From Dehalococcoidia bacterium (lineage in GTDB: Bacteria; Chloroflexota; Dehalococcoidia; GIF9; UBA5629), in the NCBI GenBank assembly GCA_011170325.1, contig DUEX01000017.1:1-37472 (forward strand): a stretch of DNA of 37,472 nucleotides, written 5' to 3'. Positions 3,402-21,406 of the stretch are shown here, piece after piece. The notes beneath the pieces are model-generated. The model was not told where the DNA came from, did not search any database, and saw nothing but the letters and a program-made list of their open reading frames with translations. How positions within the stretch are numbered: the first letter of the stretch is position 1; the number at the start of each line of letters is the position of its first letter. The translations under genes and the position numbers were made by a program.

Positions 3402-3434
3402 TTTGCTCTCCTTAGTTTAATTTCAGCATATGTT

Positions 3435-3527: not shown

Positions 3528-3549
3528 AGCCTTCCCCTTCCAGGCCTAG

Positions 3550-4272: not shown

Positions 4273-6234
4273 TCATACTAGCACCCCTTCTATCTCGGCC
4301 ATTATCTGCTCAGTGGTGAAGTGCTTGCTGGTGATGGCTCCTGATGGGCAAGCGGCAGCACAAGTGCCACAACCTTTGCATAAAGCCTCGTTAACCCGAC
4401 ATACCTCCTTATCTTCAATGAAAGAAATAGCTCCGTAAGGACAGAGAAATTCGCAGATTCGACAACCTGAGCATTTTTCCTCATCAATAATGGAGGTAGC
4501 TGCCTCTATCTCAACCTTACCTTTGCTGATTAAGGCTAAAACTCGGGCAGCGGCTGCCGAAGCCTGGGACACTGTATCTGGGATATCCTTTGGTCCCTGG
4601 CAGCAGCCCACTACGTAGATTCCCTCGGTCATGGTAGCCACTGGGTCCAGCTTGGGGTGGCGCTCTAAAAAGAAACCATCAGCCTTGCGACTGATAGATA
4701 AGATATGAGCCACTTCATTGGCATCTTGCTGTGACTCAATGGCAGCACACAGGACAACCATATCAGCAGGCACCTGGGTCACCTTACTATTATCAGGGTC
4801 CTCAGCGGTGATAATTAACCTCCCCTGGTCTGCTTCCTTTCCGTTGGCACTAGTGACCTGCTGCACCTTCCCACGAACGAAGTTGACTCCTTCCTTGACC
4901 AACCGCTGGTAGAAATCCTCATAATCCTTGCCAAAGCAGCGGATATCAGTAAATATTTGATATACCATACTGTTAGTCTTTTCTTTAATAAGGTGGGAAT
5001 GCTTCAAGGCATACATGCAGCATACCCGTGAGCAATAATCATGATAATTCTCATCACGGCTGCCGATACAGTGAACAAGGGCTACACTTCGTGGAATAGA
5101 ACCATCCTTTAATTGAATATTGCCGCCGGTGGGACCTGTGGCATTGCACAGTCTCTCGAACTGAAGTCCGGTAATAACATTGTCAAATTTCCCATAGCCA
5201 TATTGAGTAGCAATGGAAGGGTCAAAGGTCTGAAAGCCAGTAGCCACGATGATATTACCTACTTCTACCTCCACCAACTTGTCCTCCTGTTCAAAATCAA
5301 TAGCCCCCGCCTCACAGAATTTCTCACAAGCACGGCACTTACCCTTCTGAAAGTAGGCACAGTTCTGCCGATCAATGACGGGAACATTGGGCACTGCTTG
5401 GGGAAAGGGGGTATAGATAACCTTCCGCTGCCCTAAACCCATGTCGAACTCGCTGGTTACTTTCCACGGACACTTCTCCTGACAAAGGCCACAACCGGTG
5501 CACTTCTCCTCGTCGACATACCTAGCCTTTTTCCTGATCTTGGCCTTGAAGCTGCCGACATAACCTGACACCTCTTCAACTTCACTGTAAGAGAGTAACT
5601 CAATATAAGGATGTGAGCCCACTTGGCTCATTTTTGGAGTTAAGATGCAGGCGGAGCAGTCCAGAGTGGGGAAAGTCTTGTCCAGTTGAATCATATGTCC
5701 GCCGATAGAAGGCTCACGCTCCACCAAGTAGACCTTGTGATAAGAGTCAGCAATTTCCAAGGCTGCTTGGATACCTGCGATACCTCCACCTACTATCAAT
5801 GTGTTTGAATTTACGGGAACCTCTCTTATTTCGAGGGGCTCATGGTAGAAGACTCGCCGTACTGCAGCTTGTACCAAGGCCTGAGCCTTTTCTGTGGCTT
5901 TTTCGTGATCTTCAGTTACCCAAGAGCAATGCTCCCGAATATTAGCCATCTGGAATGAGTAGCGGTTCAGCCCTGCCTCTTCACAGACCCGGCGGAAGGT
6001 AGGTTCGTGCATATGAGGAGAGCAAGAGGCAACTATGACCCGGTTCAGCCCCAATTCCTTAATATCCCGCCCTATCATTTCTTGACCAGGCTCAGAGCAC
6101 ATGAACTTGTAATCCCGGGCTATTACTACTGAATCTAGAGTGCCAGCATACTGGCTTACCTGGGCTACATCTACCGTTCCGGCAATATTACTGCCACAGT
6201 GGCAGATATATACTCCTATTCTCACCTCTTCCAT
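4273..6234 (-). CDS. hdrA: HdrA-like flavin/iron-sulfur subunit (conventional form)
   Basis: The 653-residue protein has the full HdrA layout. An N-terminal cluster domain starts with C11-x-C13 and CSEPG near 46. An FAD Rossmann motif GGGIAGIQAALE lies near 148, the HdrA signature DCSACILTPKM near 195, and a ferredoxin motif CTGCGLCQEKC near 246. A CRACEKFC segment is near 316 and two C-terminal [4Fe-4S] ferredoxin motifs lie at C588-C598 and C619-C629. HdrA is the flavin-based bifurcation centre in heterodisulfide reductases. It is the last gene of the hdr-flx operon, 38 bp after flxA, with GGAG five bases before the ATG. By eye it is roughly three-quarters identical to the HdrA at 18268-20232. 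It lacks the large insertion found in the fused HdrA at 9370-12720. Confidence 0.95.
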   Translation of the reverse strand: MEEVRIGVYICHCGSNIAGTVDVAQVSQYAGTLDSVVIARDYKFMCSEPGQEMIGRDIKELGLNRVIVASCSPHMHEPTFRRVCEEAGLNRYSFQMANIREHCSWVTEDHEKATEKAQALVQAAVRRVFYHEPLEIREVPVNSNTLIVGGGIAGIQAALEIADSYHKVYLVEREPSIGGHMIQLDKTFPTLDCSACILTPKMSQVGSHPYIELLSYSEVEEVSGYVGSFKAKIRKKARYVDEEKCTGCGLCQEKCPWKVTSEFDMGLGQRKVIYTPFPQAVPNVPVIDRQNCAYFQKGKCRACEKFCEAGAIDFEQEDKLVEVEVGNIIVATGFQTFDPSIATQYGYGKFDNVITGLQFERLCNATGPTGGNIQLKDGSIPRSVALVHCIGSRDENYHDYCSRVCCMYALKHSHLIKEKTNSMVYQIFTDIRCFGKDYEDFYQRLVKEGVNFVRGKVQQVTSANGKEADQGRLIITAEDPDNSKVTQVPADMVVLCAAIESQQDANEVAHILSISRKADGFFLERHPKLDPVATMTEGIYVVGCCQGPKDIPDTVSQASAAAARVLALISKGKVEIEAATSIIDEEKCSGCRICEFLCPYGAISFIEDKEVCRVNEALCKGCGTCAAACPSGAITSKHFTTEQIMAEIEGVLV

Positions 6235-6272: not shown

Positions 6273-7133
6273 CTATGGCTGCTCTAAAAACTGCGATATC
6301 TGCTCTAGGGTGAATACCGGGCCATCCTGACAGACATACTTGTCACCCACATTGCATCGAGCACATTTACCCAAGCCGCACTTCATTTTAGCTTCCAGTG
6401 TAGTGACAATCTGGTCGTCTTTAAAGCCTAGCCCCTTTAGCACCGCTAAGGTGAAGTGAATCATTATCGGGGGGCCACAGATAATAGCAATGGCATTATC
6501 TGGTGAGGGTGCTAATTCCCTCAATACATCGGGGACCAAAGCCACTCGCCCTCCCCAGTGCTCATCGCCCCTGTCAACGGTGAGCTCCAGTTGAGTTCTA
6601 GGTGCTTCCATCCAAGTCTGAAACTCTGGCCTGAACACTAGGTCCTGAGGCGTGCGTGCCCCGTTAATGACTAGCAAATTCCCATAATTGTCTCTCTGTT
6701 CGAGTATTTTGTTGATCACCGGCCGTAATGGCGCCATCCCAATGCCACCGCCGATGATGACCATGTTCTTCCCCGCATAATCTTCCAAAGGGAAGTAGTT
6801 GCCGAAGGGCCCTCTCACTCCTAGGGTGTCCCCTGGCTCTAGTTCATGAAGTGCCCTGGTCACCGTGCCAATTTGCCGTACAGCGAATTCCAGGTCATCC
6901 TGATGCCGAGGCAAAGACACGATACCAAAGGGAGCCTCACCCTCCCCAAAGGCAGAGAGAAAGGCGAATTGCCCCGGCTTGTAGTCGAAGCTACCTCTGA
7001 TAGCAGCGTCCTCCAGTTCCACACGCAGAAGCTTGACATCAGGCGTCAGCTCGACAGTGCTTTTTATAGTTGCCAGATATGGCAGAAAAGGATTCTCAAG
7101 CCCCACTCTTGGCCTCCAACTGCTGAAGGTCAT
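6273..7133 (-). CDS. flxA: FlxA/AsrB-like FAD-NAD(P)H oxidoreductase subunit
   Basis: The protein has a ferredoxin-reductase-type FAD domain (YKPGQFAFLSAFGEGEAPFG near residue 52), a nucleotide-binding domain (IIGGGIGMAPLRPVI near 126; ICGPPIM near 218) and a C-terminal cluster site C252, C257, C260, C268 as in PyrK/AsrB proteins. Such subunits pass electrons between NAD(P)H and iron-sulfur partners. In sulfate reducers the FlxA protein feeds NADH electrons to HdrABC. The ATG at 7133 gives 286 residues and a 38-bp overlap with flxB, with GGGAG seven bases upstream. A GTG at 7106, with TGGAGG six bases upstream, would give 277 residues and begin close to the family's NPxLPYLA motif. Either start is possible. 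Confidence 0.9.
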   Translation of the reverse strand: MTFSSWRPRVGLENPFLPYLATIKSTVELTPDVKLLRVELEDAAIRGSFDYKPGQFAFLSAFGEGEAPFGIVSLPRHQDDLEFAVRQIGTVTRALHELEPGDTLGVRGPFGNYFPLEDYAGKNMVIIGGGIGMAPLRPVINKILEQRDNYGNLLVINGARTPQDLVFRPEFQTWMEAPRTQLELTVDRGDEHWGGRVALVPDVLRELAPSPDNAIAIICGPPIMIHFTLAVLKGLGFKDDQIVTTLEAKMKCGLGKCARCNVGDKYVCQDGPVFTLEQISQFLEQP

Positions 7134-8091
7134 CTATAATCTCCCGAATATCTATATTCACTGGGCAGGCTTTAATGCACCGGCCACACCCAACACAGGC
7201 GATATCTTGGAATTGCTCCGGGAAATAGAGCAGCTTATGATAGAAGCGTTGCTTTAACCGGGACCCCTTCGTAGCCCTCGGATTATAACCCCCAGCAATG
7301 CGGGTGAAGCCTGAAGATTGACAGCTCTCCCAACTCCGTACTCGTTCAATGTTTCCCCTATCAGAATAGTCCCGCACATCAAAGCAATAGCAGGTAGGAC
7401 AGACATAGGCACAGATACTGCAGTGTAGGCATCGGTCTGCAAGTCGCTCCCAGTAAGTATCGTCAAAGAGTCCCTTCATCGCTGGCATGACGTCCTTAAT
7501 AGGAACTGCCCGGGGCTCAGGTGGTGTAGGCAATACCCCCTCATATTCTGTGAAGCTCTCAGGTAATAGCATCTTGCCCTTTTTACTCGTAACTTGAACA
7601 ATATAGCCAACCTCTATCTCAGTCAGCAAGATATCTACATAGCTCGCATCATTGGGCGCGCTGCCCATACTGGTGCAGAAACACTCCGGCCGAGCTTGGC
7701 GGCAGGAGAGTCCAACAAGCACTGTTCGAGCATGTCGCTCCCGATACAGGGCATCACTCGGCTCCTGCAGGAGGGGCTTGTCCATTAAGGCAATGCCTCT
7801 GGCATCGCAGGGGCGCACCCCGAAGATGAGTGCGTCTCTCTCCACCATGGCTGGGACTAACTTGGTTTGCCCATCATTCCTCTGTACTGAGAAAAGGGTT
7901 TCCGTGGGGGGCAGAAACCACCCTTTAGGTGGGAGTGTGGTGTTATCGAAATCAAGGTCAACTTCCTCCGCTTTAGAGATAGGTTGAAATAAAGTCAGCC
8001 CCTGAACCCGAACTGGTGCAATGACGACATGCTCATGAAGCAGCAAATCGAGCCAACGAATCAGATTATCCTTAGACGCAAGCAAGTTCAT
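7096..8091 (-). CDS. flxB: FlxB/AsrA-like 4Fe-4S ferredoxin subunit
   Basis: The 331-residue protein has two clear [4Fe-4S] motifs near its C-terminus: C221-x2-C224-x2-C227-x3-C231 (CLHCSICAYVC) and C299-x2-C302-x2-C305-x3-C309 (CVGCGRCIKAC). The N-terminal 200 residues include GVRPCDARG near 93 and CFCTSMG near 137, as in anaerobic sulfite reductase subunit A and FlxB proteins. It likely relays electrons between FlxA and FlxC or HdrA. Its ATG overlaps the TGA of flxC by four bases, so translation is coupled. The protein is cytoplasmic, with no signal or membrane segments. Confidence 0.9.
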   Translation of the reverse strand: MNLLASKDNLIRWLDLLLHEHVVIAPVRVQGLTLFQPISKAEEVDLDFDNTTLPPKGWFLPPTETLFSVQRNDGQTKLVPAMVERDALIFGVRPCDARGIALMDKPLLQEPSDALYRERHARTVLVGLSCRQARPECFCTSMGSAPNDASYVDILLTEIEVGYIVQVTSKKGKMLLPESFTEYEGVLPTPPEPRAVPIKDVMPAMKGLFDDTYWERLADRCLHCSICAYVCPTCYCFDVRDYSDRGNIERVRSWESCQSSGFTRIAGGYNPRATKGSRLKQRFYHKLLYFPEQFQDIACVGCGRCIKACPVNIDIREIIDDLQQLEAKSGA

Positions 8092-8954
8092 TCTTCAAAT
8101 CCCAGCTTTTCTTCTTTCCTGAAGGTCGCGAAGGGAGGTTGTTCTTCAGAGGTCAGCCCCGCCCGGAAGGAAAAGAGCTCCTCCATCTCCTTCTCCAACT
8201 TCCGGTTGAGTAGACTCAAGGGGATATCCATTGGGCAAGCCCGCTCGCACTCATTGCAGCCAGTGCAACGCCCAGCTAGGTGAAGGGTGCGGTTGGTCTG
8301 CCACAGTTCATTCTCTCCCAGGGCAATTCTGATGCCTACCCACAAGGGACTGAGCTGTTCGGCAAAACACTCGGGGCAGTAGCAACCTGGGCAGATTTGG
8401 CGACAGGCATAGCAACGGATACAGCGCCCGAATTGCTCATGCCAAAATTCCCTCCTGCTAGCAATAGGCTTAGCCTCCATTTCTAAAATGTCAGGGTAGA
8501 GTTCACCCTCTAGCCGTCGTATAGGCTCCTGCTCAGCCAAGAAGTCATAGACCACTGGTTTAGGCAACCTGCAAGTTTGACACCTCGCCTGCAATGTTTG
8601 GCTCTTTTGGTTCCACGCTGTTTCCACCACACCAGTGCAGCTAACACCGATAATAAAGACCATCTCTCGTTTTATCTGCTCCTCATTCAAGAGCAGGTTG
8701 ATAGCCAGCGAGTCACAGGGCTTGACCACGACAGCCATCTTTTCACCCTTCTTGTCCAGGAGGTATTTAACCAGATTATGACTGCAAGTTTCGTCGAAGA
8801 TAAGCTGGTCTGTGCCAGTGAGCTCATAAGCGAAGAAGGGGCGAGCAGTAAGCCCGTCGCTGGCCCGCTCATAGCCGATGACACCCTTGACTGTTCCGCT
8901 TTTCAAGAGGCCTCGGGCCTGGTCCCGAATTTGCTGGGTTAACTCTAAATTCAT
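8088..8954 (-). CDS. flxC: FlxC-like iron-sulfur protein (FdhB/FrhB-related)
   Basis: The 288-residue protein has an N-terminal domain with VVKPCDSLAINLL near 96 and GVSCTGVVE, typical of formate dehydrogenase beta / F420-hydrogenase beta related proteins. Two [4Fe-4S] motifs follow at C178-C188 (CIRCYACRQIC, followed by the Cys-rich PGCYCPEC) and C230-C240 (CTGCNECERAC). Between FlxB and FlxD this layout matches FlxC. The C-terminal tail (NRKLEKEMEELFSF and the following residues) resembles the truncated remnant at 21611-21802. Start and stop overlap the neighbours by four bases on both sides. Confidence 0.87.
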   Translation of the reverse strand: MNLELTQQIRDQARGLLKSGTVKGVIGYERASDGLTARPFFAYELTGTDQLIFDETCSHNLVKYLLDKKGEKMAVVVKPCDSLAINLLLNEEQIKREMVFIIGVSCTGVVETAWNQKSQTLQARCQTCRLPKPVVYDFLAEQEPIRRLEGELYPDILEMEAKPIASRREFWHEQFGRCIRCYACRQICPGCYCPECFAEQLSPLWVGIRIALGENELWQTNRTLHLAGRCTGCNECERACPMDIPLSLLNRKLEKEMEELFSFRAGLTSEEQPPFATFRKEEKLGFEE

Positions 8955-9373
8955 CCTAAACTTCGCTCCTTGACACAGGGTCCAAGCTCAGCCAACTCCG
9001 TGGTGAAACTGGCTACTATCTCGGCAAACCTCTGGCCTTCTGAGGCAGAAACCCACTCCACTCGCAGGCGCTCCTTTGCTATACCTAGATAGTCGAGGAA
9101 ATTGCGAAGTAGTGCAAACCTGCGCCTGGCGTGATAATTGCCCTCGGTGTAATGACAATCGCCCGGATGACAGCCTGAAATCAAGACTCCGTCAGCCCCA
9201 CGCTGAAAGCACTTCAGCACTAGAAGAGGGTCAACCCGTCCGGAGCAAGGGACACGGATGATACGAACATTAGGGGCGTAGCTTATACGGCTAGTCCCAG
9301 CCATATCAGCGCCAGCATAGCTACACCAATTACACAAGAAACCAATGACCTTCGGTTGATACTCCACCTTCAT
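8951..9373 (-). CDS. flxD: FlxD/MvhD-like [2Fe-2S] electron-transfer subunit
   Basis: The 140-residue protein carries the MvhD/FlxD pattern: FLCNWCSYAGAD at the start (C14, C17), PCSGRVDP (C43), a Cys at 55 and SGCHPGDCHY (C68, C73). In methanogens MvhD bridges the hydrogenase to HdrA. In Flx systems FlxD bridges FlxABC to HdrA. No hydrogenase large subunit is present here, so the Flx role fits better. It directly follows the fused HdrA gene with an ATGA overlap, which supports physical contact between the two products. Confidence 0.93.
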   Translation of the reverse strand: MKVEYQPKVIGFLCNWCSYAGADMAGTSRISYAPNVRIIRVPCSGRVDPLLVLKCFQRGADGVLISGCHPGDCHYTEGNYHARRRFALLRNFLDYLGIAKERLRVEWVSASEGQRFAEIVASFTTELAELGPCVKERSLG

Positions 9374-12300
9374 AATGCCATAACCTCTGCCAGAAGTTGC
9401 TGGTCACTGAAACCCCTGAGTTTTATTGCCCCAGGGCGACACGCAGCAACACAGACACCACATCCCTTACACAGGCTCTCATTGATTGAGGCCACAACAC
9501 GTCCATCCTTGAGGGTTTCAGCTTCGATAGCTGTGAAGGGGCAAACCTGGCGGCATAGCAGGCAGCCACTGCACCGACTAATATCTACAATAGAGGTCAT
9601 CGGTTCGGCGTCAATGACGTCATGGCTAAATAGTTTCAGCACATACTCTGCAGCAGCACCACCTTGAGCTACAGATTCTGGTATATCAGTGGGTGCAATA
9701 GCACATCCAGCGAGGAAGATGCCGTCAGTGAAGGTCTCCACTGGGCGCAACTTGACATGTGCCTGAAGCAGATAGTTCTTGGTATCGTAGCTGATATTGA
9801 GGCTCTGGGCTAGCTTAGAGACTCCATCACTGGGCATCAGCCCCGTGGCTAGAACCACTAGGTCACCAGGTATGTTGAATGTCTTGTTCTTGAGAAGGTC
9901 TTGCCCAGAAACCGAGAGCCTGCCGTCGCACTGAGATACTTTGTCTATCCGCCCCCTCAGGTAAGTGGTACCTGCTTCCTGTGCCCGTGTCAGGAACTCC
10001 TCGAAAATCTTGCCTCCTGGCCCCCGAGCGTCGGTATACACAATATAACTATGGGTCTCCGGGTAATGCTCTTTTAGCATAACGGCATGCTTAGCCATAT
10101 ACATGCAGCACACCTTACTGCAATAGCCATTTCCAGTACGCTCATCACGGGACCCAACACAGCTGACGAAGACTATGTCTTTGGGGTGAACTCCATTAGA
10201 AGGGCAGATTACTTCGCCACCGGTAGGACCGGCGGCGCTCATCATTCTCTCCAGCTGTAGGCTACTGATGACGTCAGGATATACACCTCCACCATAGATA
10301 CTAAATTGGGTGTGGTCCAATACCTTAACCCCAGTAGCTACTACTATCGCTCCTACATCTTCCTCGACCACCTCATCTTGCATCTCATGGTCAATGGCTT
10401 TAGCTTCGCAAACCTTTTCGCACTCCTGACACTCTGAGCAGACTGCGCAATTAAGGCAGCGCTTGGCCTCGGCTACAGCCTTTGTCTCATCAAAGCCTAG
10501 CTCCACCTCAGCAAAAGAGCCAGCCCGTTTCCCCAACTCAAGTACGGGCATAACTGCTCTTTCTTTTGTTACAACCCCTTCTTTGGGCACATCCTTAACG
10601 CTTTCCCGGGCTTCTGGTCTACCCTCTTTCAGGTCAACGCTGCACAAGTAGCGGTCAATAGAAACGGCTACTTCCTTGCCAGTAGCTATAGCAGCGATAA
10701 CATCAGCCGGGCCAGAAACTACATCACCACCAGCAAAAACACCATCTATGTTAGTTTGTAATGTAATTGGGTCAACAACCAGTGTTCCCCACCCAGTAAA
10801 GGCAAGCTCTTTAGGTAGCATTTCCTTGTTAACCATTTGACCAATGGCAATAATCACATTATCCACGTCTATGTCGAATTCCGAGCCTTTGATTGGCATA
10901 GGACGACGACGACCGCTGGCATCGGGTTCACCCAATTCCATACGAATACATTGTATGCCGGTTACTCGATTATCCTTGGATAGTACCTTAACCGGTGCTG
11001 CCAGGAAGTGAATCTTTACCCCTTCATGCTCCATTTCCTCAATTTCACTGGGGATAGCTGGCATCTCAGCTCGAGACCGGCGATAGACTATAGTTACCTC
11101 TTTGACTCCGAGGCGCATGGCTACTCGAGCAGCATCAACAGCGGCATTGCCGCCACCGATAACAGCCACTTTGTTTCCCAGGCTGGCTTTGGCTCCAGAG
11201 CTAATTTGCTCCAAGAAATCGAGAGCGTGAATCACTCCTAGGGTATCTTCGCCAGGAATATTCATCTTTTGGCTAACGCCAGCACCTGTGGCTAGGAAAA
11301 TTGCTTTGTACCCTTGATTGAAAACTTCACTAAGGTTTTTCACCAGAGTATTCGTCTTAATTTCCACACCCAGCTCTTGCACATAGCTAATTTCGTTGTC
11401 TACTATCTCATTGGGCAATCGATATTCAGGGATACCATAGCGCAGAAGACCGCCAGCCTTTGGGGCAGCTTCAAACACTGTAACTGGATATCCCTGTCTG
11501 ACCAGGTCGTAAGCGCAAGCTATACCGGCAGGGCCGGAGCCGATGACAGCCACTTTTTCCTCTTTGGTTCTTTTCACTGGAGTTGCTTTCTCTCTGCCTG
11601 CCTTCAGCTCATAGTCAGCCATAAAACGCTTTAGCGACCTGATAGCTATAGGTTGGTCAACCTTGCCTCGCTCGCAATCTCGCTCACAAGGATGGGTACA
11701 CACCCGCCCACAAACCCCGGCGAAAGGCATGGTTCTGCGGAGCACATCCAGGGCTTCCTTGAATTTGCCCTGGGAAATAAGGGCTATGTAGCCCTGGGCG
11801 TTGACCCCGGCGGGGCAAGCGGCCCGGCAGGGTGGATAGCCTCGTTTGTCGATAGCGAAAACATTAGGTACAGCCTGTGGGAAAGGCCTATATATAGCCC
11901 TCCTGTTGGCTAGTTTGTATTCGAACTCGGAAGGGGCCTCAACCGGGCATACTTTCTCGCACTCTCCACAGCCTGTGCATTTGTCAACATCCACATATCT
12001 AGGTTTCTTCTTGACTTTGACCTTGAAATTGCCCACATACCCAGAGACTTCTACTACCTCACTATAGCTCATTAGTTCAATATATGGATGAGAGCCCACC
12101 AAGCTCATCTTGGGGGTAAGGATGCAAGCCGAGCAATCCAGGGTAGGAAAGGTCTTATCCAGCTGGATCATGTGCCCGCCAATGCTAGGCTCCCTTTCTA
12201 CCAAGTAGACCTTATGTCTGGAATCAGCAATTTCTAAAGCTGCTTGAATCCCGGCGATGCCCCCTCCCACCACCAGGGTATTGGGGTTGATTGGAACTTC

Positions 12301-12720
12301 TCTGGTCTCTAAGGGCTCGTTATAGTAAACACGACTTATTGCTGCACTAACCAGGGCTTTGGCCTTCTCCGTAGCTGCCCCATGGTCTTCGCTTACCCAG
12401 GAACAGTGCTCTCGGATATTGGCCATCTGGAACTGATATCGGTTCAGCCCAGCGCTTTCGCAAACTTGACGAAAGGTTCGCTCATGCATCAGTGGCGAGC
12501 AAGAAGCTACCACTACTCGGTTAATTCCTAGATTCTTAATGTCCTCTCTAATAAGGTCCTGCCCTGGATCAGAGCACATATAGGTGTAATTTCGAGCAGT
12601 TACTACAGAGGGCAATCCTTGAGCGAACTCAGTAACCGCATCTACATCAACTGTGCCAGCGATATTGCTCCCACAGTGGCAAATATAGACGCCGATTTTC
12701 CTGTCCATATTCCTATTCAT
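9370..12720 (-). CDS. Giant HdrA with an internal GltD/NfnB-like NAD(P)H:flavin module
   Basis: The 1116-residue protein is HdrA split by a large insert. Residues 1-290 are HdrA: CHC at 14-16, FAD motif GGGIAGIQA at 152-160, DCSACILTPKM at 195-205 and ferredoxin C248-C258. Residues about 294-760 are a complete GltD/NfnB-type unit. It has a Cys-rich leader (C298, C302, C337, C341, C345, C349), a second FAD site GSGPAGIA at 394-401, and a nucleotide site GGGNAAVDA at 522-530 with YRRSRAEMPA at 546-555, an NADPH-type signature. HdrA then resumes at CSECQECEKVC (761-771) and ends with ferredoxin motifs C1050-C1060 and C1084-C1094. The ordinary HdrA has only about 20 residues at the insertion point. 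It lies between hdrB and flxD in one operon, so it is presumably the central HdrA of the complex. AGGAGG precedes the ATG; a second ATG at 12708 is possible. Confidence 0.93.
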   Translation of the reverse strand: MNRNMDRKIGVYICHCGSNIAGTVDVDAVTEFAQGLPSVVTARNYTYMCSDPGQDLIREDIKNLGINRVVVASCSPLMHERTFRQVCESAGLNRYQFQMANIREHCSWVSEDHGAATEKAKALVSAAISRVYYNEPLETREVPINPNTLVVGGGIAGIQAALEIADSRHKVYLVEREPSIGGHMIQLDKTFPTLDCSACILTPKMSLVGSHPYIELMSYSEVVEVSGYVGNFKVKVKKKPRYVDVDKCTGCGECEKVCPVEAPSEFEYKLANRRAIYRPFPQAVPNVFAIDKRGYPPCRAACPAGVNAQGYIALISQGKFKEALDVLRRTMPFAGVCGRVCTHPCERDCERGKVDQPIAIRSLKRFMADYELKAGREKATPVKRTKEEKVAVIGSGPAGIACAYDLVRQGYPVTVFEAAPKAGGLLRYGIPEYRLPNEIVDNEISYVQELGVEIKTNTLVKNLSEVFNQGYKAIFLATGAGVSQKMNIPGEDTLGVIHALDFLEQISSGAKASLGNKVAVIGGGNAAVDAARVAMRLGVKEVTIVYRRSRAEMPAIPSEIEEMEHEGVKIHFLAAPVKVLSKDNRVTGIQCIRMELGEPDASGRRRPMPIKGSEFDIDVDNVIIAIGQMVNKEMLPKELAFTGWGTLVVDPITLQTNIDGVFAGGDVVSGPADVIAAIATGKEVAVSIDRYLCSVDLKEGRPEARESVKDVPKEGVVTKERAVMPVLELGKRAGSFAEVELGFDETKAVAEAKRCLNCAVCSECQECEKVCEAKAIDHEMQDEVVEEDVGAIVVATGVKVLDHTQFSIYGGGVYPDVISSLQLERMMSAAGPTGGEVICPSNGVHPKDIVFVSCVGSRDERTGNGYCSKVCCMYMAKHAVMLKEHYPETHSYIVYTDARGPGGKIFEEFLTRAQEAGTTYLRGRIDKVSQCDGRLSVSGQDLLKNKTFNIPGDLVVLATGLMPSDGVSKLAQSLNISYDTKNYLLQAHVKLRPVETFTDGIFLAGCAIAPTDIPESVAQGGAAAEYVLKLFSHDVIDAEPMTSIVDISRCSGCLLCRQVCPFTAIEAETLKDGRVVASINESLCKGCGVCVAACRPGAIKLRGFSDQQLLAEVMAL

Positions 12721-12738: not shown

Positions 12739-13629
12739 TTACGTCGCTGGTTCAGCCATCGTTACGGATGGTGCAAGGACCTTTTCGGCTGATATTACAC
12801 CTTTATCTAGCCCCAAGCCCTGAAGCTCAATGCCTAGCGCTACACCTAGCAATTGAGTAAAGAATAAAATGGGAAGGTTATAGCTGGTTCCAAATTTGCT
12901 ATTGACCATACCTTGGTAAGCATCCAGATTGGTCTGGCACAGGGGGCAGACGGTAACAATACACTGGGCGCCATTGCTGCCGGCGCTCTCAAGCAATTGG
13001 TGGATCAAACCCAGAGCCAAATCTAATTCAGGTATGATTAAGGACCCCCCGCAACAGCGGTCCTTTAGTGGGAAGGGGACGGGTTCTGCTCCCAAGCTTG
13101 CTATCAAGCGGTCAAGCGACTGCGGATTCTGTTGGTTATCAAAACTAGGCTCAGGACGAACTAGCTGACAGCCATAGTAGGGAGCCACTCTTAGCCCGGT
13201 AAGTGGGTTCATCACTTTGGACTCGATGGTCTTAAGGCCGGTATCATTAAAAATAACCTCAAACAAGTGCCGTATCTTGACTGTTCCCTTATACTCTAGG
13301 CCAGCAGTAGCTAAACATTCATCAACCTTGCCCTTCAGGTCAGGATATTCCCTGAGCTGAGAGTTAGCTCTGTTTAGTGTAGTGTAGCAGGAGCTACAGG
13401 GTGTTACTAAATCAAGCCCAGTCTTTTCAGCTAGGGCCAGATTACGAGCTGCGATGCAAAGCGACTCGAGTTCATTGGTTGAGCCATAAGGTGTCGACCC
13501 ACAGCAGTTCCAATCCTCTAGCTCGATTAACTCCATGTCGAGGGCTCCAGTGATAGCCTGAGTAGACAGACCATAGGCTACTGCGGTAGCCTCTAGTGAG
13601 CAGCCTGGAAAGTAGGAGTAGTACCTCAT
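12739..13629 (-). CDS. hdrB: HdrB-like subunit with two CCG domains
   Basis: The 296-residue protein has two complete CCG (Cys-rich) domains: C10, C42-C43, C78, C81 and C154, C192-C193, C228, C231. In HdrB of methanogens these ten cysteines hold two noncubane [4Fe-4S] clusters that reduce the CoM-S-S-CoB disulfide. Here the acceptor is unknown, because no coenzyme M or B genes and no DsrC are seen. The C-terminal 45 residues beyond the second domain are not part of the core fold. The ATG overlaps the TGA of hdrC (ATGA), and the gene lies 18 bp before the giant hdrA. Confidence 0.94.
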   Translation of the reverse strand: MRYYSYFPGCSLEATAVAYGLSTQAITGALDMELIELEDWNCCGSTPYGSTNELESLCIAARNLALAEKTGLDLVTPCSSCYTTLNRANSQLREYPDLKGKVDECLATAGLEYKGTVKIRHLFEVIFNDTGLKTIESKVMNPLTGLRVAPYYGCQLVRPEPSFDNQQNPQSLDRLIASLGAEPVPFPLKDRCCGGSLIIPELDLALGLIHQLLESAGSNGAQCIVTVCPLCQTNLDAYQGMVNSKFGTSYNLPILFFTQLLGVALGIELQGLGLDKGVISAEKVLAPSVTMAEPAT

Positions 13630-14417
13630 TGAGCACCTCCTAAAACATTAGCTTTTTCTATAATAGTTTTGAGTTGGTTGATTCCCCTTATTTTTCTAGG
13701 CTTAAGGGGCATGCGCCCGCGTGATAGCAGTTTTAACCCTATAGGGATCATCTTGAGAACAGCTAGGGGATTTGTTTTCAAGTAGAACTTGCTCATGACC
13801 CCAAGCTCATGGACACGTCCGTTATTGTTAATGGAGTTAACGAAGGCGTTGTACATGGCGGGGGTGGATGTTGCCCCGTGGCGTAGACCATGATGAAAGC
13901 TCAAGCGTTCAAGGGCGTGCATAAGCTCGGTTGGCTTGACATCCTTGGGGCAACGCACAGTGCAAAGGTAACAGGAGGCGCAAACCCACATGCTGTTGCT
14001 AGTCAAGACATCGTAACGTCTCCCCGCCCGGATCAAGGCAATAATTTTTCGAGGCGAATAGTCCATTTTGCCGACATTGGGGCAGGATGCAGAGCACATG
14101 CCACATTGGACGCACCAGCGAACGCACTCGCCACCTGGCGTAGAGCAGACCTCATCCAAAAAAGGGTTAGGTGCGGCAGGTTCAACCTTAAGAACGTCGA
14201 GGTTTTTGACCCATTCCTTTGCCCGGATTTCGCTGGCTACTGAAGCCACTCTTACAGGGGCATCCACCGTGGCTGCAATTACAAAATCGTAGTCTCCAGA
14301 TACTGGTTCAACAGTCTCTATCTCGGGCATTGCCTTTAACTCTTTCATGCCGTCTGTATGACCATCTCGCGCATATGACATCTCCATTTTGACCATTAAG
14401 TAAGCCTTTGTTCCCAT
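13626..14417 (-). CDS. hdrC: HdrC-like ferredoxin fused to an N-terminal Lrp/AsnC-type RAM domain
   Basis: The 263-residue protein has two parts. Residues about 1-85 (MGTKAYLMVKMEM to VLKVEP) form an Lrp/AsnC ligand-binding (RAM) domain, with the typical IETVEPVSGDYDFVIAATV strand pattern. Residues about 95-263 are HdrC: [4Fe-4S] motifs C102-C112 (CVQCGMCSASC) and C146-C156 (CASCYLCTVRC), then the helical tail of the family. HdrC passes electrons from HdrA to HdrB. The RAM half is a close paralog of the two stand-alone proteins just upstream. RAM domains usually bind amino acids or other small ligands and form dimers or octamers. AAGGAGG lies eleven bases before the ATG. Confidence 0.92.
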   Translation of the reverse strand: MGTKAYLMVKMEMSYARDGHTDGMKELKAMPEIETVEPVSGDYDFVIAATVDAPVRVASVASEIRAKEWVKNLDVLKVEPAAPNPFLDEVCSTPGGECVRWCVQCGMCSASCPNVGKMDYSPRKIIALIRAGRRYDVLTSNSMWVCASCYLCTVRCPKDVKPTELMHALERLSFHHGLRHGATSTPAMYNAFVNSINNNGRVHELGVMSKFYLKTNPLAVLKMIPIGLKLLSRGRMPLKPRKIRGINQLKTIIEKANVLGGAQ

Positions 14418-14451
14418 CCTACTGTTATCCTCCTTTTAGTAGCTAATTGGC

Positions 14452-14769
14452 TCAAGCTTGCGGAAGATGCGTGACGGACAGCTCTGAAATCTTCTCAGGC
14501 TCAATATGCTCAATCCTCCTATGCTCAACAGGCTCAATCCTAAGCACAAGAAGACGTGTGACCCATTCCTTTTCCAGTATCTTGTTTGCCACGAAGATAG
14601 TCCTTATCGGCACATCTACCTTAACCATAAGGTCATAGATCCCGGAAACTGGCTCGACGAACTCTACTTCGGGTATTTTCTCTAGCTCACCGGTTGCCCT
14701 TATGAGGTGCTCCTGGTTTTGAGTAATCTGCTCATCCACATTAATCAAAAAATAAGCCTTTGTTCCCAT
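14452..14769 (-). CDS. Stand-alone Lrp/AsnC ligand-binding (RAM) domain protein
   Basis: From the ATG at 14769 the protein has 105 residues. An upstream in-frame start at 14841 would add 24 residues with a Gly/Pro/Lys-rich run unlike the paralogs, while GAGGTGAGG sits right before the ATG chosen. It begins MGTKAYFLINV and contains VEFVEPVSGIYDLMVKVDVP, the RAM core. The N-terminal helix-turn-helix of true Lrp/AsnC regulators is missing, so it is unlikely to bind DNA alone. It is the second of three tandem RAM copies, the third being fused to HdrC. A ligand-sensing or assembly role for the Hdr complex is an inference. Confidence 0.85.
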   Translation of the reverse strand: MGTKAYFLINVDEQITQNQEHLIRATGELEKIPEVEFVEPVSGIYDLMVKVDVPIRTIFVANKILEKEWVTRLLVLRIEPVEHRRIEHIEPEKISELSVTHLPQA

Positions 14770-14861
14770 TTCCTCACCTCTTTTCTTCCAACCCTTTGCC
14801 AGGGGCAAGCCTGGTGTGGGTGATTCCTCTCCCCTATCCAAACCTGCCCCTGGTTCTCAGG

Positions 14862-15206
14862 TTATTTGTTTCCGGCTCGAATCCTCAGGAGATCCCTAAT
14901 CTTTGACCTCTTCTGTTCTTCGGCTATAACCTCGCTGAGGGCAGGCGTCGTCGCCATCTCTGGTTCGACATGCTCAACCGTGAGGATGCGGAAGCGTTTG
15001 ACCCATTCCTTTGCCCGTATCTTGTTGGCCACCAGGATAGCCCTTATCGGGACATCTACCTTCACCAGGAGGTCGCATGCCCCTGAGACTGGCTCAACAG
15101 CTTCCACCTCGGGGATTGCCTCTAAATCTCTCTGTGCATCTAGCCACTTATCCCCCTGACAGGCCGCATCCACCACATCGATCATGAAGTAAGCCTTCGT
15201 TCCCAT
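14862..15206 (-). CDS. Stand-alone Lrp/AsnC ligand-binding (RAM) domain protein, operon leader
   Basis: The first gene of the hdr-flx operon encodes 114 residues from the ATG at 15206 (AAGGAGG eight bases upstream; a GTG two codons earlier is too close to that site). It has the RAM core, with VEAVEPVSGACDLLVKVDVP near 34 and RAILVANKIRAKEWVKRF after it. A charged C-terminal extension follows (about 85-114) that the HdrC-fused copy lacks. There is no helix-turn-helix. The 92-bp gap to the next copy shows no terminator that I can defend, so all are probably co-transcribed. The gene faces a divergent two-component system. Confidence 0.85.
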   Translation of the reverse strand: MGTKAYFMIDVVDAACQGDKWLDAQRDLEAIPEVEAVEPVSGACDLLVKVDVPIRAILVANKIRAKEWVKRFRILTVEHVEPEMATTPALSEVIAEEQKRSKIRDLLRIRAGNK

Positions 15207-15287: not shown

Positions 15288-15334
15288 TTAGCTGCCAAGT
15301 GCCATCCGGAACGGTGCCTATTTTTAGCTGCCAA
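15288..15334. promoter_or_regulatory. Direct repeat TTAGCTGCCAA x2, candidate operator
   Basis: An exact 11-bp word, TTAGCTGCCAA, occurs at 15288-15298 and again at 15324-15334, 36 bp apart start to start. It lies between the divergent RAM/hdr operon and the response-regulator gene. The distance is between three and four helical turns. NarL-type regulators often bind repeated short sites, so these could be binding sites for the regulator encoded next door. That is inference from position only. Confidence 0.4.
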
Positions 15335-15479: not shown

Positions 15480-16145
15480 ATGGATAAGATCAAGGTTCTA
15501 CTTGCCGAGGACCACGTGGTAGTGCGCGAAGGTACTCGCGAGCTTATAAAGCGTGAGCCGGATATGGAAGTGGTTGGCGAGGCCAGTGACGGGGATGAAG
15601 CTGTCAAGCTAGCGGCTAAGCTGAAGCCAGATGTAGTCATAATGGATATCGCTATGCCTAAGCTTAATGGCATCGAAGCTACAAAGCAGATAAAGGCATC
15701 TCAGCCGGCTGTAGCCGTTCTGATACTTACTGCTTATGATAATGACCAGTATATTTTCGCTCTCTTGGAGGCAGGGGCGGCAGGCTATTTATTGAAGAAT
15801 GTGCGAGGGCGTGAATTAATTGATGCTGTTCGAGCAGTACATGCTGGCGAGTCAGTACTTCATCCTGCAGTTGCCCGTAGAGTTATAGACAGCCTTGTAT
15901 TCCCAGACCTCAAGCCAGCTAAGGACCAAGAAATTGAGCCTCTGAGTGAGCGCGAGGTAGAGGTGCTGAAGCTGGCAGCAAGGGGGATAAGCAATAAGGG
16001 TATTGCTGAGGAGCTCTGTCTCAGCGCACGCACAGTTCAAGCTCATTTAGGAAATATTTTTAATAAGCTGGGTGTCGGTTCGCGGACGGAGGCTATATTA
16101 TATGGTTTAAGGAAAGGCTGGTTCACTTTGGAAGACATGCCTTGA
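15480..16145 (+). CDS. NarL/FixJ-type response regulator
   Basis: The 221-residue protein has a receiver domain with acidic pocket E10-D11, phospho-acceptor D56 (VVIMDIAMP), T84 and K106 (LLKNVRG). A linker and a C-terminal LuxR-type helix-turn-helix follow (LSEREVEVLKLAARG through LGNIFNKLGVGSRTEA, about 155-210). Such proteins are phosphorylated by a partner kinase and then bind DNA. The ATG at 15480 is preferred: the promoter at 15423-15451 would put the transcript start near 15458, after the alternative GTG at 15456, and TGAGG lies close upstream. An ATG at 15465 is also possible. The kinase gene follows 40 bp later. Confidence 0.93.
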   Translation: MDKIKVLLAEDHVVVREGTRELIKREPDMEVVGEASDGDEAVKLAAKLKPDVVIMDIAMPKLNGIEATKQIKASQPAVAVLILTAYDNDQYIFALLEAGAAGYLLKNVRGRELIDAVRAVHAGESVLHPAVARRVIDSLVFPDLKPAKDQEIEPLSEREVEVLKLAARGISNKGIAEELCLSARTVQAHLGNIFNKLGVGSRTEAILYGLRKGWFTLEDMP

Positions 16146-16185
16146 CTTCTTGCTTTATTCAAGATGTTCAAGGAATTTTGCGTAT

Positions 16186-18207
16186 ATGGTTCTACATATG
16201 TCAAGCGGGGTGTTAAGGGTTATACGTAATCGTCATCTCTGGATTGTGCTGGCGATATTTGCCATAGGTATAATCTTTCACTACCCACAGCAGATGCCCT
16301 TCACAGGCCTAACGGCTCCCTTCTCCTTTCTAGGCTTAACCCGACATGCAGTTGAACGGATTCTGTTCTTAGTGCCTGTAACCTATATTGGCTTTGTCTT
16401 CGGAATAAAGGCTGGGCTGACCAGCTTAGGGTTTGCCCTTCTCATTATGTTGCCTCGGGCTGTTTTTATCTCTCCAAGCCTGCCCGATGCTTTATTTGAG
16501 ACTTTTGGCATTATCTTGATTGGCGGTTTGGTGAACTTATGGTTTGAGGAGCGCAGGAGAGAAAGGGAACACCAGCAACAGATGCTGCTAAGACTGGAAG
16601 CAGCCCAGCAGGAGCTTCAATCGCAAATTGAGGTCATAAGGACTAATGGAAAAAGGCTTGCTGCTTTAAATGATATCTCTGCTATTCTCAACCGGTCTTT
16701 GGAACTGCAAAATACCCTAAGCGCTGCTACCGATAAGGCTAGAGAAATAGTTGGTGCAGAGACTGCACTACTATTCCTCTTGGACGAAGGGACTCAAGAG
16801 CTTAAGCTTGAGGTTTACCAAGGTGTATCTGAAGAATTCGCCGCTGGCGTAGAAAGGCTAAAGGTAGGCGAAGGCTTCAATGGCCGAGTTGCTGAGACGG
16901 GGGAAACATTATTGGTAGAGGATTCTTCTCACGACCCTAGGCTTGCTAGAGAAGTGGTAAGGCGAGAAGGGCTGCAATGTCAACTCATCGTGCCTTTGAA
17001 GTCAGAAGGCAGGGTAGTTGGCACTCTATGCGTGGCCAGACATAATCAGAGGCGGTTTCTGGCTGACGAGGTGGATCTGCTTACTCTTATAGGTAATGAG
17101 ATTGGAATTACCATCGAGAATATGCATTTCTATCAGACGCAGCGCTTGATGACAGAGTGGCTGCGAAAGTCAGAGGAAAGCTATCGAAGGTTGTTCGAGA
17201 ATGCCCATGATGCTATCTGGGTACATGATTTGGAAGGTAACATTCAAATGGTTAATAAGGCCGCTGAAAAGCTTGTCGGCTATTCTGTAGAAGAGCTCTG
17301 CAAAGCAAATGTAAAGTCATTTCTCTCTGAGGAAAGCCTAAATTTAGCCAGAGAGGTAGGTCGTAAGTTGATCCAATGCCGGCCTGTGGACCAGCCCTAT
17401 GAGCAGAGACTGATCAGGAAGGACGGCACAGAGGCGATTTGTATGCTTACTACCAGCTTGATTACCAGTGATGGTGAGGCAGAGGCTTTTCAGAATATTG
17501 CCAGAGATGTGACTATGCAGAGGCATATGGAAGAGAACATGAAGTTCTACCTTCAGCAGGTTACTATGGCTCAGGAGGAGGAGCGTAAGCGTATTGCCCG
17601 AGAGCTTCACGATGACACAGCACAAGCTTTGATAGTGCTCTCACGTCAGCTGGATAGCCTTACCTCTACTACTGACCACTTATCAACGCAGGATATCGCA
17701 CATCTAGAGAAGTTACAGCAGCAAGCCGACGCGATACTGGAGGGGGTGCGCCGCTTTAGCCAAGACCTGCGACCATCCATCTTAGACGACCTAGGCCTTC
17801 TGCCGGCGTTGGAATGGCTAACTTCTGATGTGACCCATCACTTTGGGATAGCTGTGGGGATAGGAGTACTTGGCCCTGTGCGCCGTTTTGCTCCTGAGGT
17901 AGAGTTAGTGTTGTTCCGCATTGCTCAAGAGGCACTGAGGAACGTGTGGAAGCATTCTGAGGCATCAAGAGCTTGGGTTACAGTGGAGTTTGGTGATGAC
18001 AGAACTTCTCTGACTGTTAAGGATAATGGCAAAGGTTTTGAGCCACTACAAAATATAGGAGACCTAGCCAGCATTGGCAAGCTTGGGCTAATTGGAATGC
18101 AGGAGCGAGCTCGACTCATTGGGGGCAAGCTAACAGTGCAATCAGAGGCGGGCAAGGGAACAACCGTAACTGCTGAGGTACCAATTCAGAATAGCCTTAA
18201 GGATTAG
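16186..18207 (+). CDS. Membrane-anchored GAF/PAS sensor histidine kinase (NarX/DegS-like)
   Basis: The 673-residue protein has about four N-terminal membrane segments (roughly residues 18-121), a coiled-coil linker, a GAF domain (about 155-310) and a PAS domain (about 330-450). A HisKA_3 dimerisation domain carries the phosphorylated His475 in RELHDDTAQ. The ATPase domain has N586 (NVWKHSEAS), D613 (DNGKGFEP) and a GLIGMQERA stretch. This HisKA_3 type pairs with NarL-type regulators. The ATG at 16186 has AAGGAA ten bases upstream; a TTG at 16150 is in frame but has no site. The signal sensed is not evident; no heme- or Cys-cluster motif stands out. Its neighbours make redox or electron-acceptor sensing plausible. 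Confidence 0.92.
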   Translation: MVLHMSSGVLRVIRNRHLWIVLAIFAIGIIFHYPQQMPFTGLTAPFSFLGLTRHAVERILFLVPVTYIGFVFGIKAGLTSLGFALLIMLPRAVFISPSLPDALFETFGIILIGGLVNLWFEERRREREHQQQMLLRLEAAQQELQSQIEVIRTNGKRLAALNDISAILNRSLELQNTLSAATDKAREIVGAETALLFLLDEGTQELKLEVYQGVSEEFAAGVERLKVGEGFNGRVAETGETLLVEDSSHDPRLAREVVRREGLQCQLIVPLKSEGRVVGTLCVARHNQRRFLADEVDLLTLIGNEIGITIENMHFYQTQRLMTEWLRKSEESYRRLFENAHDAIWVHDLEGNIQMVNKAAEKLVGYSVEELCKANVKSFLSEESLNLAREVGRKLIQCRPVDQPYEQRLIRKDGTEAICMLTTSLITSDGEAEAFQNIARDVTMQRHMEENMKFYLQQVTMAQEEERKRIARELHDDTAQALIVLSRQLDSLTSTTDHLSTQDIAHLEKLQQQADAILEGVRRFSQDLRPSILDDLGLLPALEWLTSDVTHHFGIAVGIGVLGPVRRFAPEVELVLFRIAQEALRNVWKHSEASRAWVTVEFGDDRTSLTVKDNGKGFEPLQNIGDLASIGKLGLIGMQERARLIGGKLTVQSEAGKGTTVTAEVPIQNSLKD

Positions 18208-18267: not shown

Positions 18268-20232
18268 TCATGCTAGCACTCCTTCAATTTCAGCCATAAT
18301 TTCTTCGGTAGTGAAGTGCTTATGAGTAATTGCACCGCTGGGGCAGGCGGCAGCACAAGTGCCACAACCCTTACATAGAGCCTCATTAACTCGAGATACC
18401 TCTTTGTCCTCAATGAAGGAGATGGCACTGTAAGGACAAAGAAGGTTGCAGATCTGGCAGCCAGAGCATTTCTCCTCATCAATGACAGCGGTAGCTGCTT
18501 CCATCTCGACTTTGCCTTTGCTGATTAAGGCTAAAACTCGGGTAGCAGCAGCCGAGGCTTGGGCTACAGTGTCAGGTATATCTTTAGGACCCTGGCAACA
18601 ACCGGCAACAAAGATGCCGTCAGTCATGGTTGCCACTGGGTCAAGTTTGGGATGTCTCTCTATAAAGAAACCATCTGCACCTTGACTGATACTGAATAAC
18701 TTAGCAACTTCCTTGGCATCTGAGCGTGCCTCCAAGGCTATACACAAAATGACCATATCCACCGGAACTCGCATAGTTGTCCCTAATAGAGTATCTTCAC
18801 CGCAGACGATTAATTTCCCCTTCTCATCCTCGTTGATTGCCCTATCAGTAACTTCAGCTACCTTTCCTCGTATAAAAGTAACCCCCTCTTCAGAGAGACG
18901 CTTATAGAATTCCTCATATCCCTTGCCGAAGCAGCGCATATCTATATACATCTGATAAACTTCGGCATCAGTCCTTTCCTTTATAAGATGGGAATATTTG
19001 AGAGCATACATGCAGCACACTCGTGAGCAATACTCATGATAGTTTTCATCGCGGCTACCCACACAGTGGATAATAGCTATACTCTTTGGTTCTGAACTAT
19101 CTTTAAGAACTATTTTGCCGCTAGTAGGTCCTACAGCATTACATATTCTCTCAAATTCAAGGCCGGTAACAACATTATCAAAACGCCCGTAACCATATTG
19201 GGTGATGGGAGTGGGGTCGAAGGCATCGTAACCGGTAGTAATAATAATATTTCCTATGTCTACTTCGATGACCTGGTCAACCTGCTCAAAGTCAATGGCT
19301 CCCACCTCACAGAACTTTTCGCAAGCACGGCAGGTACCTTTTAGGAAATAAGCACAGTATTCTTTATCAATAACTGGGATGTTTGGCACCGCCTGGGCGA
19401 ATGGGGTGTAAATAGCTTTTCTCTTACTCAGGCCGAGGTCAAACTCACTATCTGCTTTCCACGGGCATTTCTCTTGGCAGACACCGCAGCTAGTGCATTT
19501 AGACTCGTCTACAAAGCGAGCCTTCTTCCGAATCCTCGCTTTGAAATTGCCGATAAAGCCAGAGATTTCCTCCACCTCACTATAGGTCATCAGTTCAATA
19601 TAAGGATGGGCACCTACTGCTGTCATCTTCGGCGTGAGGATACAGGCAGAGCAGTCTAAGGTAGGGAAGGTCTTATCAAACTGAATCATGTGTCCGCCAA
19701 TGCTGGGGTCTCTCTCTACTAGATAGACTTTATGCTCGGAGTCAGCAATTTCCAGAGCAGCTTGGATACCGGCGATACCGCCACCAACAATCAAAGTATT
19801 CGGATTAACCGGGATCTCCCTTATCTCCAGAGGCTGGTGATAATAAACGCGCTTCACTGCAGCGCTTACTAGTCTTTTTGCCTTCTCTGTGGCTTTTTCA
19901 TGGTCTTCGGTGACCCAGGAGCAGTGCTCCCGAATATTAGCCATCTCAAAGAGGTAAGGATTTATTCCAGCTTCTTGGACAGCACGGCGGAAGGTCGGCT
20001 CGTGCATCAGCGGCGAACAGGAGGCAACTACGGCCCGATTAAGGCCTAGTTGCTTAATATCCTCCTTAATCATATTCTGTCCTGGATCGGAACACATAAA
20101 CTTGTATTCCCGGGCAACTACCACCGAGTCCAAACCCTTGGCGAAATCGACTACTTGCTGTATATCAACTGTATCGGCGATATTAGCCCCGCAGTGACAA
20201 ATATAGACACCGATTCGGACTTTATCCTCCAT
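18268..20232 (-). CDS. hdrA: HdrA-like flavin/iron-sulfur subunit, second conventional copy
   Basis: The 654-residue protein has the same layout as the HdrA at 4273-6234: CHC near 12, FAD motif GGGIAGIQAALE near 149, DCSACILTPKM near 196, ferredoxin CTSCGVCQEKC near 247, CRACEKFC near 317 and C-terminal ferredoxin motifs at C589-C599 and C620-C630. By eye about three quarters of residues match that copy, so the two are recent paralogs. It lies 19 bp after the HdrD-like gene, with an excellent AAGGAGGTG site five bases before the ATG. The pair therefore looks like a separate HdrA-HdrD electron-transfer unit. It converges on the histidine kinase gene across a 60-bp gap. Confidence 0.95.
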   Translation of the reverse strand: MEDKVRIGVYICHCGANIADTVDIQQVVDFAKGLDSVVVAREYKFMCSDPGQNMIKEDIKQLGLNRAVVASCSPLMHEPTFRRAVQEAGINPYLFEMANIREHCSWVTEDHEKATEKAKRLVSAAVKRVYYHQPLEIREIPVNPNTLIVGGGIAGIQAALEIADSEHKVYLVERDPSIGGHMIQFDKTFPTLDCSACILTPKMTAVGAHPYIELMTYSEVEEISGFIGNFKARIRKKARFVDESKCTSCGVCQEKCPWKADSEFDLGLSKRKAIYTPFAQAVPNIPVIDKEYCAYFLKGTCRACEKFCEVGAIDFEQVDQVIEVDIGNIIITTGYDAFDPTPITQYGYGRFDNVVTGLEFERICNAVGPTSGKIVLKDSSEPKSIAIIHCVGSRDENYHEYCSRVCCMYALKYSHLIKERTDAEVYQMYIDMRCFGKGYEEFYKRLSEEGVTFIRGKVAEVTDRAINEDEKGKLIVCGEDTLLGTTMRVPVDMVILCIALEARSDAKEVAKLFSISQGADGFFIERHPKLDPVATMTDGIFVAGCCQGPKDIPDTVAQASAAATRVLALISKGKVEMEAATAVIDEEKCSGCQICNLLCPYSAISFIEDKEVSRVNEALCKGCGTCAAACPSGAITHKHFTTEEIMAEIEGVLA

Positions 20233-20251: not shown

Positions 20252-21406
20252 TTAAATCACCTCTTGAACTAATTCGGCGATGTCCCTAATTTCAATGACG
20301 TCGCCCTTATCTGAGGTCAGCACGCTATCCTCAAAGTTAAGCATGCAGTAAGGACAAGCAACGGCTAATATACTGGCTCCAGTCTCAAGCGCCTGCTCGA
20401 GTCTTAAGTCAGAGAACCTTTCACCCTTTTTGGTTTCCATCCAGAGCCTCCCGGCACAGCCACCACAACATAAGGAATTTTCACGGTATTCCCACATCTC
20501 AAGCAACTCTAAACCAGGGATACTCTTCAAAGTTTGCCGAGGCTCATCATACATCCCCGCATAACGCCCTAGGCAGCAGGAGTCTTGATAAGTAACCTTT
20601 TTATTCAATTCTTTAGTGAACTTTAGCCTTCCCTCGTTAATAAGCTCGTTCAAATATTGAGAAAGGTGAATTACTTCAAAATTACCACCTAACTCGGGGT
20701 ATTCTTGCATGAAGGTGTGATAGCAATGTGGTGAGGTAACAACGATTTTGTTAACACCAGCTTTAGTGAAAGCCTCAATATTATTTCTGGCCAGACTTTG
20801 GAACACGCTCTCACTACCTGACTTGCGAATACTTTCACCGCAGCAGGATACCTCAGCACCTAGGATGCCAAAATCTACATCGGCCTTGTTCAGAATATTG
20901 GCTGCTGCCCGGGCAACCCTCTGTATGCTTGGGTCGTATGTTTGAATACAGCAGGGGAAGTATAATATCTCAGTTCCTTTGGTATATGTCTTTACGCCAA
21001 GGTCTTTTGCCCAATCTGGGCGGGTCTCCCGCGGTTCTCCCAGCGGATTGCCCACGGCGGCAAAGTTCTTAGCTACAAGCCGGAGTGAGTCAGGAACTTT
21101 GCCTACGCCTGCCTCCACAATGACTCTACGCAAATCCCTCATAATATCTACTACTTCCACACCACGAGGACACCGATCAACACACGCTTTACAGCCAACA
21201 CAGGTCCACAGGTCTTCATCTTCAAAGTCAACCAGGCCCAGTTGTGCCTGATGAATTAACTTGCGAAGCATAAAACTTCTTACCCTATTCCAGGGGCAAG
21301 TGCCAGTGCATAGACCGCATTGATAACACAGCTCGAATTTTTCACCACCAACTTCCTTCATAAAATCTAGCGTCTCTGGTGATGGGCTTACTGTTTGAAC
21401 AACCAT
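20252..21406 (-). CDS. hdrD: HdrD-like iron-sulfur protein (HdrC-HdrB fusion)
   Basis: The 384-residue protein joins two [4Fe-4S] ferredoxin motifs (C27-C37, CYQCGLCTGTC; C69-C79, CVGCKACVDRC) to two CCG domains (C152-C153, C188-C189, C228; then C277-C278, C313-C314, C351, C354). This is the HdrD/GlpC-like order. The first CCG domain ends in SPHCYH, so the first Cys of the usual CxxC is Ser225; one cluster site may be incomplete or of the variant type. No transmembrane segments are present, unlike methanogen HdrDE systems, where HdrE is the separate cytochrome. AAAGGAGG precedes the ATG. It forms an operon with the HdrA at 18268-20232. Confidence 0.9.
   Translation of the reverse strand: MVVQTVSPSPETLDFMKEVGGEKFELCYQCGLCTGTCPWNRVRSFMLRKLIHQAQLGLVDFEDEDLWTCVGCKACVDRCPRGVEVVDIMRDLRRVIVEAGVGKVPDSLRLVAKNFAAVGNPLGEPRETRPDWAKDLGVKTYTKGTEILYFPCCIQTYDPSIQRVARAAANILNKADVDFGILGAEVSCCGESIRKSGSESVFQSLARNNIEAFTKAGVNKIVVTSPHCYHTFMQEYPELGGNFEVIHLSQYLNELINEGRLKFTKELNKKVTYQDSCCLGRYAGMYDEPRQTLKSIPGLELLEMWEYRENSLCCGGCAGRLWMETKKGERFSDLRLEQALETGASILAVACPYCMLNFEDSVLTSDKGDVIEIRDIAELVQEVI

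Follow-up and report, generated by a model that had tools for sequence, protein, structure and literature searches.

Proteins built on the RAM (Lrp/AsnC ligand-binding) domain are known to form dimers and rings in which amino acids or other metabolites are bound at the interfaces. Members that stand alone bind amino acids, change their oligomeric state on binding and can hetero-oligomerise with a full-length regulator, and their role has been described as unclear (PMC2995911). Four unrelated classes of bifurcating enzymes have been listed (PMC5861303), and acetogens are known to have HdrA proteins of large size (PMC9430772). The FlxABCD-HdrABC NADH dehydrogenase/heterodisulfide reductase (described by Ramos et al. 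2015 and cited by both PMC5861303 and PMC9430772) has a gene set in common with the locus analysed here, a window of 37,472 nucleotides from a Dehalococcoidia bacterium (contig DUEX01000017.1, assembly GCA_011170325.1). One cluster of this window holds hdrABC together with mvhD/flxD, two iron-sulfur subunits and an NAD/FAD subunit, the names FlxB and FlxC being applied only in the sense of "like".

Organisation of the gene cluster

The operon lies on the reverse strand and begins with the genes of two free RAM-domain proteins, R1 (14862..15206, 114 aa) and R2 (14452..14769, 105 aa), followed by a gene (14417-13626) in which a third RAM domain, R3 (14178..14417), is joined to HdrC (13626..14177). 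The hdrB gene (12739..13629), which encodes two CCG domains, overlaps hdrC by 4 bp and is succeeded by a gene for an HdrA of 1116 aa (9370..12720) that is interrupted by a GltD/NfnB-like module for NAD(P) binding. The remaining genes encode an MvhD/FlpD protein (FlxD-like, 8951..9373), an FrhB/FdhB- and Fer4-domain protein (FlxB/C-like, 8088..8954), a Fer4_22 iron-sulfur protein (FlxB/C-like, 7096..8091), a FAD/NAD-binding subunit of the ferredoxin-reductase type (FlxA-like, 6273..7133) and, at the end of the run, a second HdrA (4273..6234). Divergent to the operon, on the forward strand, are a NarL/LuxR-type response regulator (15480..16145) and its partner, a GAF-PAS-HisKA_3 histidine kinase whose N-terminal part is apparently membrane-spanning (16150..18207). 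Beyond the kinase lie a further HdrA (18268-20232), bringing the HdrA genes of the window to three, and a protein in which an HdrC-like part and an HdrB-like part are combined (20252-21406).

The GltD/NfnB-like module comprises about 500 residues, and the same HdrA fusion was seen in the related loci L154 and L187; partial genes in L142 (genome G003) and L143 (genome G023) also match it. Directly downstream of the HdrA-GltD gene of L187, a protein starting with a receiver (REC) domain (1794-4133) matches the GltD-like part of the window HdrA, and is another example of a redox operon that incorporates a signalling domain.

RAM domains and their fusion to HdrC

The open reading frames of R1, R2 and R3-HdrC were intact, and the ATG of each was preceded by a purine run resembling a Shine-Dalgarno sequence, that of R2 being an internal ATG (MGTKAYF). 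The RAM domain occupies residues 1-80 of R1, ahead of a predicted helix (90-112), and residues 1-80 of the fusion protein; relatives of R1 were found in L154 and L185, and the L154 orthologue of R2 is 82% identical over the domain. In a Pfam search the RAM parts of all three proteins matched PF01037 with E values of 2.4e-4 to 4.5e-4 (20.5-21.4 bits), short of the gathering score of 25 bits. As this threshold was missed and the subfamily is divergent, the assignment is based on the fold, together with a profile match to 2cvi (E 0.0011). A GxxD turn lies between the second and third strands, with G41 and D44 invariant in a nine-row alignment.

Structure prediction was carried out with AlphaFold on an alignment of the window sequence and its relatives. 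Residues 1-80 of the fusion were modelled as a βαββαβ fold with a pLDDT of about 80-94, and the same fold was predicted for R1; the HdrC half, for which the alignment held only two full-length rows, fell to a pLDDT of 30-60 in places. On comparison with the PDB, the fusion model ranked Lrp/AsnC proteins (2e1c, E 5.6e-5) and stand-alone RAM modules at the top, with TM-scores over the target of 0.77-0.86 for R3 against TTHA0845 (2djw), STS042 (2zbc) and FFRP-DM1 (2e1a), and the R1 model ranked 2cvi and other Lrp/AsnC proteins first. Other ferredoxin-like domains (plant HMA) came next, with similar or slightly weaker scores. At the level of predicted structure, the N-terminal domains of R1 and R3 were thus confirmed as RAM folds, and a different fold for the N-terminus of R3, which the initial annotation had named as an outcome that would overturn its reading of residues 1-85, was ruled out. 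No helix-turn-helix match was obtained in R1, R2 or R3, all of which start at the RAM strand, and nothing recognisable was seen in R1 and R2 besides the RAM domain; ordinary Lrp/AsnC transcription factors were ruled out for these proteins by the absence of the helix-turn-helix. The picture first drawn from the sequence, of three tandem RAM paralogues heading the operon and lacking a DNA-binding domain, was therefore upheld by the Pfam matches, the predicted fold, the missing helix-turn-helix and the identity of R1 (49%) and R2 (44%) to the RAM domain of R3.

The HdrC part of the fusion (residues 81-263) carries both CxxCxxCxxxCP cluster motifs, within residues 102-157. TIGR03290 recognised residues ~98-182 (E 1.2e-21, below the cut-off of that equivalog model), HdrC chains in the PDB matched from query residue 75 on (E 2.6e-18), and the usual HdrC N-terminus aligned at about residue 76, so that there is no real linker between the RAM and HdrC parts. 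The boundary first given, residues 1-85, was correct, give or take about five to ten residues. The direct fusion, and the association of RAM with several large iron-sulfur complexes, would also suit a passive, ligand-free domain that serves as an assembly or maturation scaffold, or as a dimerisation clamp, for iron-sulfur subunits. Ferredoxin-like folds serve elsewhere as dedicated chaperones, NapD being an example. The best structural neighbours, however, are RAM proteins of the ligand-binding Lrp/AsnC family and not chaperones, and most sister HdrABC operons do without any such factor, so that a passive role is considered improbable.

The fusion was found in four further genomes (L154, L185, L186 and L187), making five in total, all of different genera. 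In each of the five, the fused RAM is the last of two to four RAM copies and lies directly before hdrB: two free RAM genes precede it in L154 (MAG Dehalococcoidales CSMAG_2725), where the fusion is 62% identical to that of the window over 261 residues, three in L185, and one each in L186, which has a run of N inside the HdrC part, and in L187. In a domain tree, four fused RAM copies formed one group (88/93) with the fifth near it, a pattern that is compatible with a single fusion event without amounting to proof. For the RAM part of R3, comparison of the window with L154 gave a dN of 0.30 and a dS of 1.16, and the resulting dN/dS of about 0.25 indicates purifying selection, although the RAM part is conserved less than HdrC. 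The possibility that two genes were joined by chance or by assembly, to no function, could draw on the sub-threshold Pfam matches and on the fragmented state of the draft genome (135 contigs). It is refuted by the recurrence of the same fusion in five separate genomes and by the selection on the RAM part, and its likelihood is regarded as negligible. The repetition of the arrangement in related bacteria shows the RAM-HdrC fusion to be real; the joining of the third RAM to HdrC that had been read from the window sequence therefore stands, and the frame error or assembly artefact held up as its possible undoing is ruled out. Across 21 Hdr loci from the same family, the match between HdrC relatives and R3 began only at residue 68-85, and none of these loci was found to contain a RAM domain, in line with the original remark that no standard HdrC with such a domain is known, which the HdrC orthologues of most related genomes bear out.

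Genomic distribution, the divergent two-component system and a candidate operator

When 84,980 prokaryotic genomes were scanned with a single peptide pattern, and the order, the class and the phylum were searched as well, close members of the RAM subfamily came only from the class to which the window belongs, the records that carry names being Dehalococcoidia. Weaker phylum-wide matches (E about 1e-4) were set aside, as the loci inspected, L095, L096 and L098, contained no recognisable RAM gene or redox context. The context of the RAM genes was read in 24 genomes, in which the operons headed by RAM encoded HdrABC (7), NuoE/NuoF with a GltD-molybdopterin protein (about 12), an NfnAB-like enzyme (L039) or related flavoproteins. 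RAM thus adjoins three of the four bifurcating classes of PMC5861303, namely HdrABC, the NuoEF/formate-dehydrogenase type and NfnAB, and free relatives also head operons without any HdrC. The Hdr-operon setting proposed at the outset was correct as described, but that account had missed both the HdrC-less RAM operons and the recurring module of RAM, two-component system and bifurcating enzyme. Extra RAM copies in G583 (L193, about 5836-6066) and G663 (L196, about 5471-5701) lie away from redox operons, beside genes resembling those for a metal-dependent hydrolase and a protease of the proteasome type.

A NarL-type regulator and a GAF-PAS-HisKA_3 kinase homologous to those at 15480-18207 were found divergent beside RAM in 20 of the 24 genomes. 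Among the exceptions, L092 had none, none was seen in G663, the pair was present in a different order in G583, and only a kinase remnant was left in L187. The N-terminal ~180 residues of the window kinase (16150-16690) matched no Pfam model, yet are conserved across the kinase family, and may from their membrane-spanning look constitute an unnamed sensor domain.

The adjacency of regulator, kinase and RAM is an argument for RAM as a signalling partner, which would bind either a metabolite or the enzyme and signal this to the kinase or regulator, the HdrC fusion informing transcription of whether the complex is present or how large its redox load is. G069 would fit such a role as well: at its locus (L091, 7264-7992 and 10309-11082), two REC proteins carry a RAM-like C-terminal domain, amounting to RAM fused to a signalling domain, and are accompanied by a REC-GltD protein and by an iron-sulfur histidine kinase resembling a hydrogenase. 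Set against this, L092 has RAM and enzyme with no two-component system, L187 retains RAM-HdrC beside a decayed kinase, and the same system also lies beside RAM-less Hdr and NuoEF operons. An exclusive partnership is weakened by these cases, from which RAM appears as an addition to redox operons often adjoined by the system and not as its constant partner. A signalling role was judged rather unlikely.

A candidate promoter/operator, proposed from conservation of the sequence, was located at 15292..15323 on the reverse strand (AAATAGGC-N8-GGATGGCA-N2-TGGCAG), beginning 117 nt upstream of R1. The consensus AAATAGG(C/T)-N-CT-N4-C-R-GATGGCA-N2-TGGCAG was present in 6 of the 7 loci of the RAM-Hdr type examined, 101-117 nt upstream of where the first RAM gene starts. 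These loci showed 1-5 mismatches to it and shuffles about 11.5 on average, a comparison that favours the element because the consensus was drawn from the same sequences. A partly independent check was provided by the core, AAATAGGC-N5-10-RGATG, of which the window genome has a single copy (15323-15303) and the L154 genome two, every one of them next to this two-component system; simple base counting predicts about 0.6 and 0.3 chance matches, respectively. The element was absent from the RAM-less Hdr loci and from L187, where the kinase remnant (9471-9758) lies beside the RAM-HdrC operon; control region and kinase have apparently been lost together there. A dyad, TAGGCAAAATGGCCTA, was strong in L154, L185, L194 and L191; it was dropped as an operator of the window, in which the only match had five mismatches, a level reached by 40 of 200 shuffles and hence expected by chance.

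Proposed function and comparison with known systems

Our preferred reading, to which a probability of about one half is given, is that RAM acts on the enzyme as a ligand-responsive assembly or allosteric subunit, the free paralogues co-assembling with the fused one. The RAM domains would then work on the enzyme and not on DNA, forming dimers and rings with a small molecule at the interfaces as in other RAM proteins. The fusion would place such an interface on HdrC, the subunit that connects HdrA with HdrB. The free proteins R1 and R2 would co-assemble with R3 as DM1 does with FL11. Ligand binding might alter the clustering of complexes or the passage of electrons from HdrA through HdrC to HdrB, and bifurcation would in this way be matched to the metabolite level. 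Transcription of the operon is probably under the separate control of the divergent two-component system.

A role at the level of the enzyme is favoured over one in transcription since the fusion outlives the kinase in L187 and RAM accompanies the enzyme without the system in L092. It is further supported by the conservation of the fusion in five genera, as last copy and before hdrB, by the purifying selection on its RAM part, by nearest structures that are RAM modules, ligand-binding stand-alone ones included, by the variety of operons headed by RAM (HdrABC, NuoEF-type and NfnAB-like), and by the lack of a helix-turn-helix in R1-R3. Against it, most HdrABC systems of the same family have no RAM at all, and in most genomes RAM is free and tied as tightly to the two-component system. 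Ligand control of, or a scaffold for, the redox complex, as suggested in the initial annotation on sequence grounds, fits the fusion and the situation in L187. A wider proposal, that Dehalococcoidia possess a dedicated ligand-sensing RAM subunit, free or fused, by which a metabolite gates the assembly or electron flow of HdrABC/Flx, NuoEF-type hydrogenase/formate dehydrogenase and NfnAB, is tentative, and is held with distinctly less confidence.

To our knowledge, the switching on and off of flavin-based electron bifurcation at the enzyme level is poorly understood. If the enzyme-level reading is true, a metabolite-binding fold within HdrC, and heading three kinds of bifurcating-type operon, would represent a direct control point. 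Stand-alone RAM proteins, whose role PMC2995911 calls unclear, would also gain a possible job outside transcription.

Like R3, the stand-alone modules TTHA0845, STS042 and FFRP-DM1 have a RAM fold without a DNA-binding domain; unlike them, the RAM proteins of the window, at 17-23% identity, form a separate subfamily that is found in bifurcating-type redox operons and is in part fused to HdrC. The HdrC of methanogen HdrABC (5odc, 7bkb and 8rvu) has the same two-cluster core as R3-HdrC (E 2.6e-18 to about 1e-15), but no solved chain begins to match before query residue 75, and none covers the RAM part. No HdrC with a RAM domain or AsnC was found in a literature search whose coverage largely excluded subscription journals; HdrC and the Flx-type gene set are already known, and the RAM-HdrC fusion and the RAM/bifurcation module are apparently undescribed. 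Compared with FlxABCD-HdrABC, the window differs in the N-terminal RAM domain of its HdrC, in the two free RAM genes ahead of it and in the GltD-like insertion of its HdrA.
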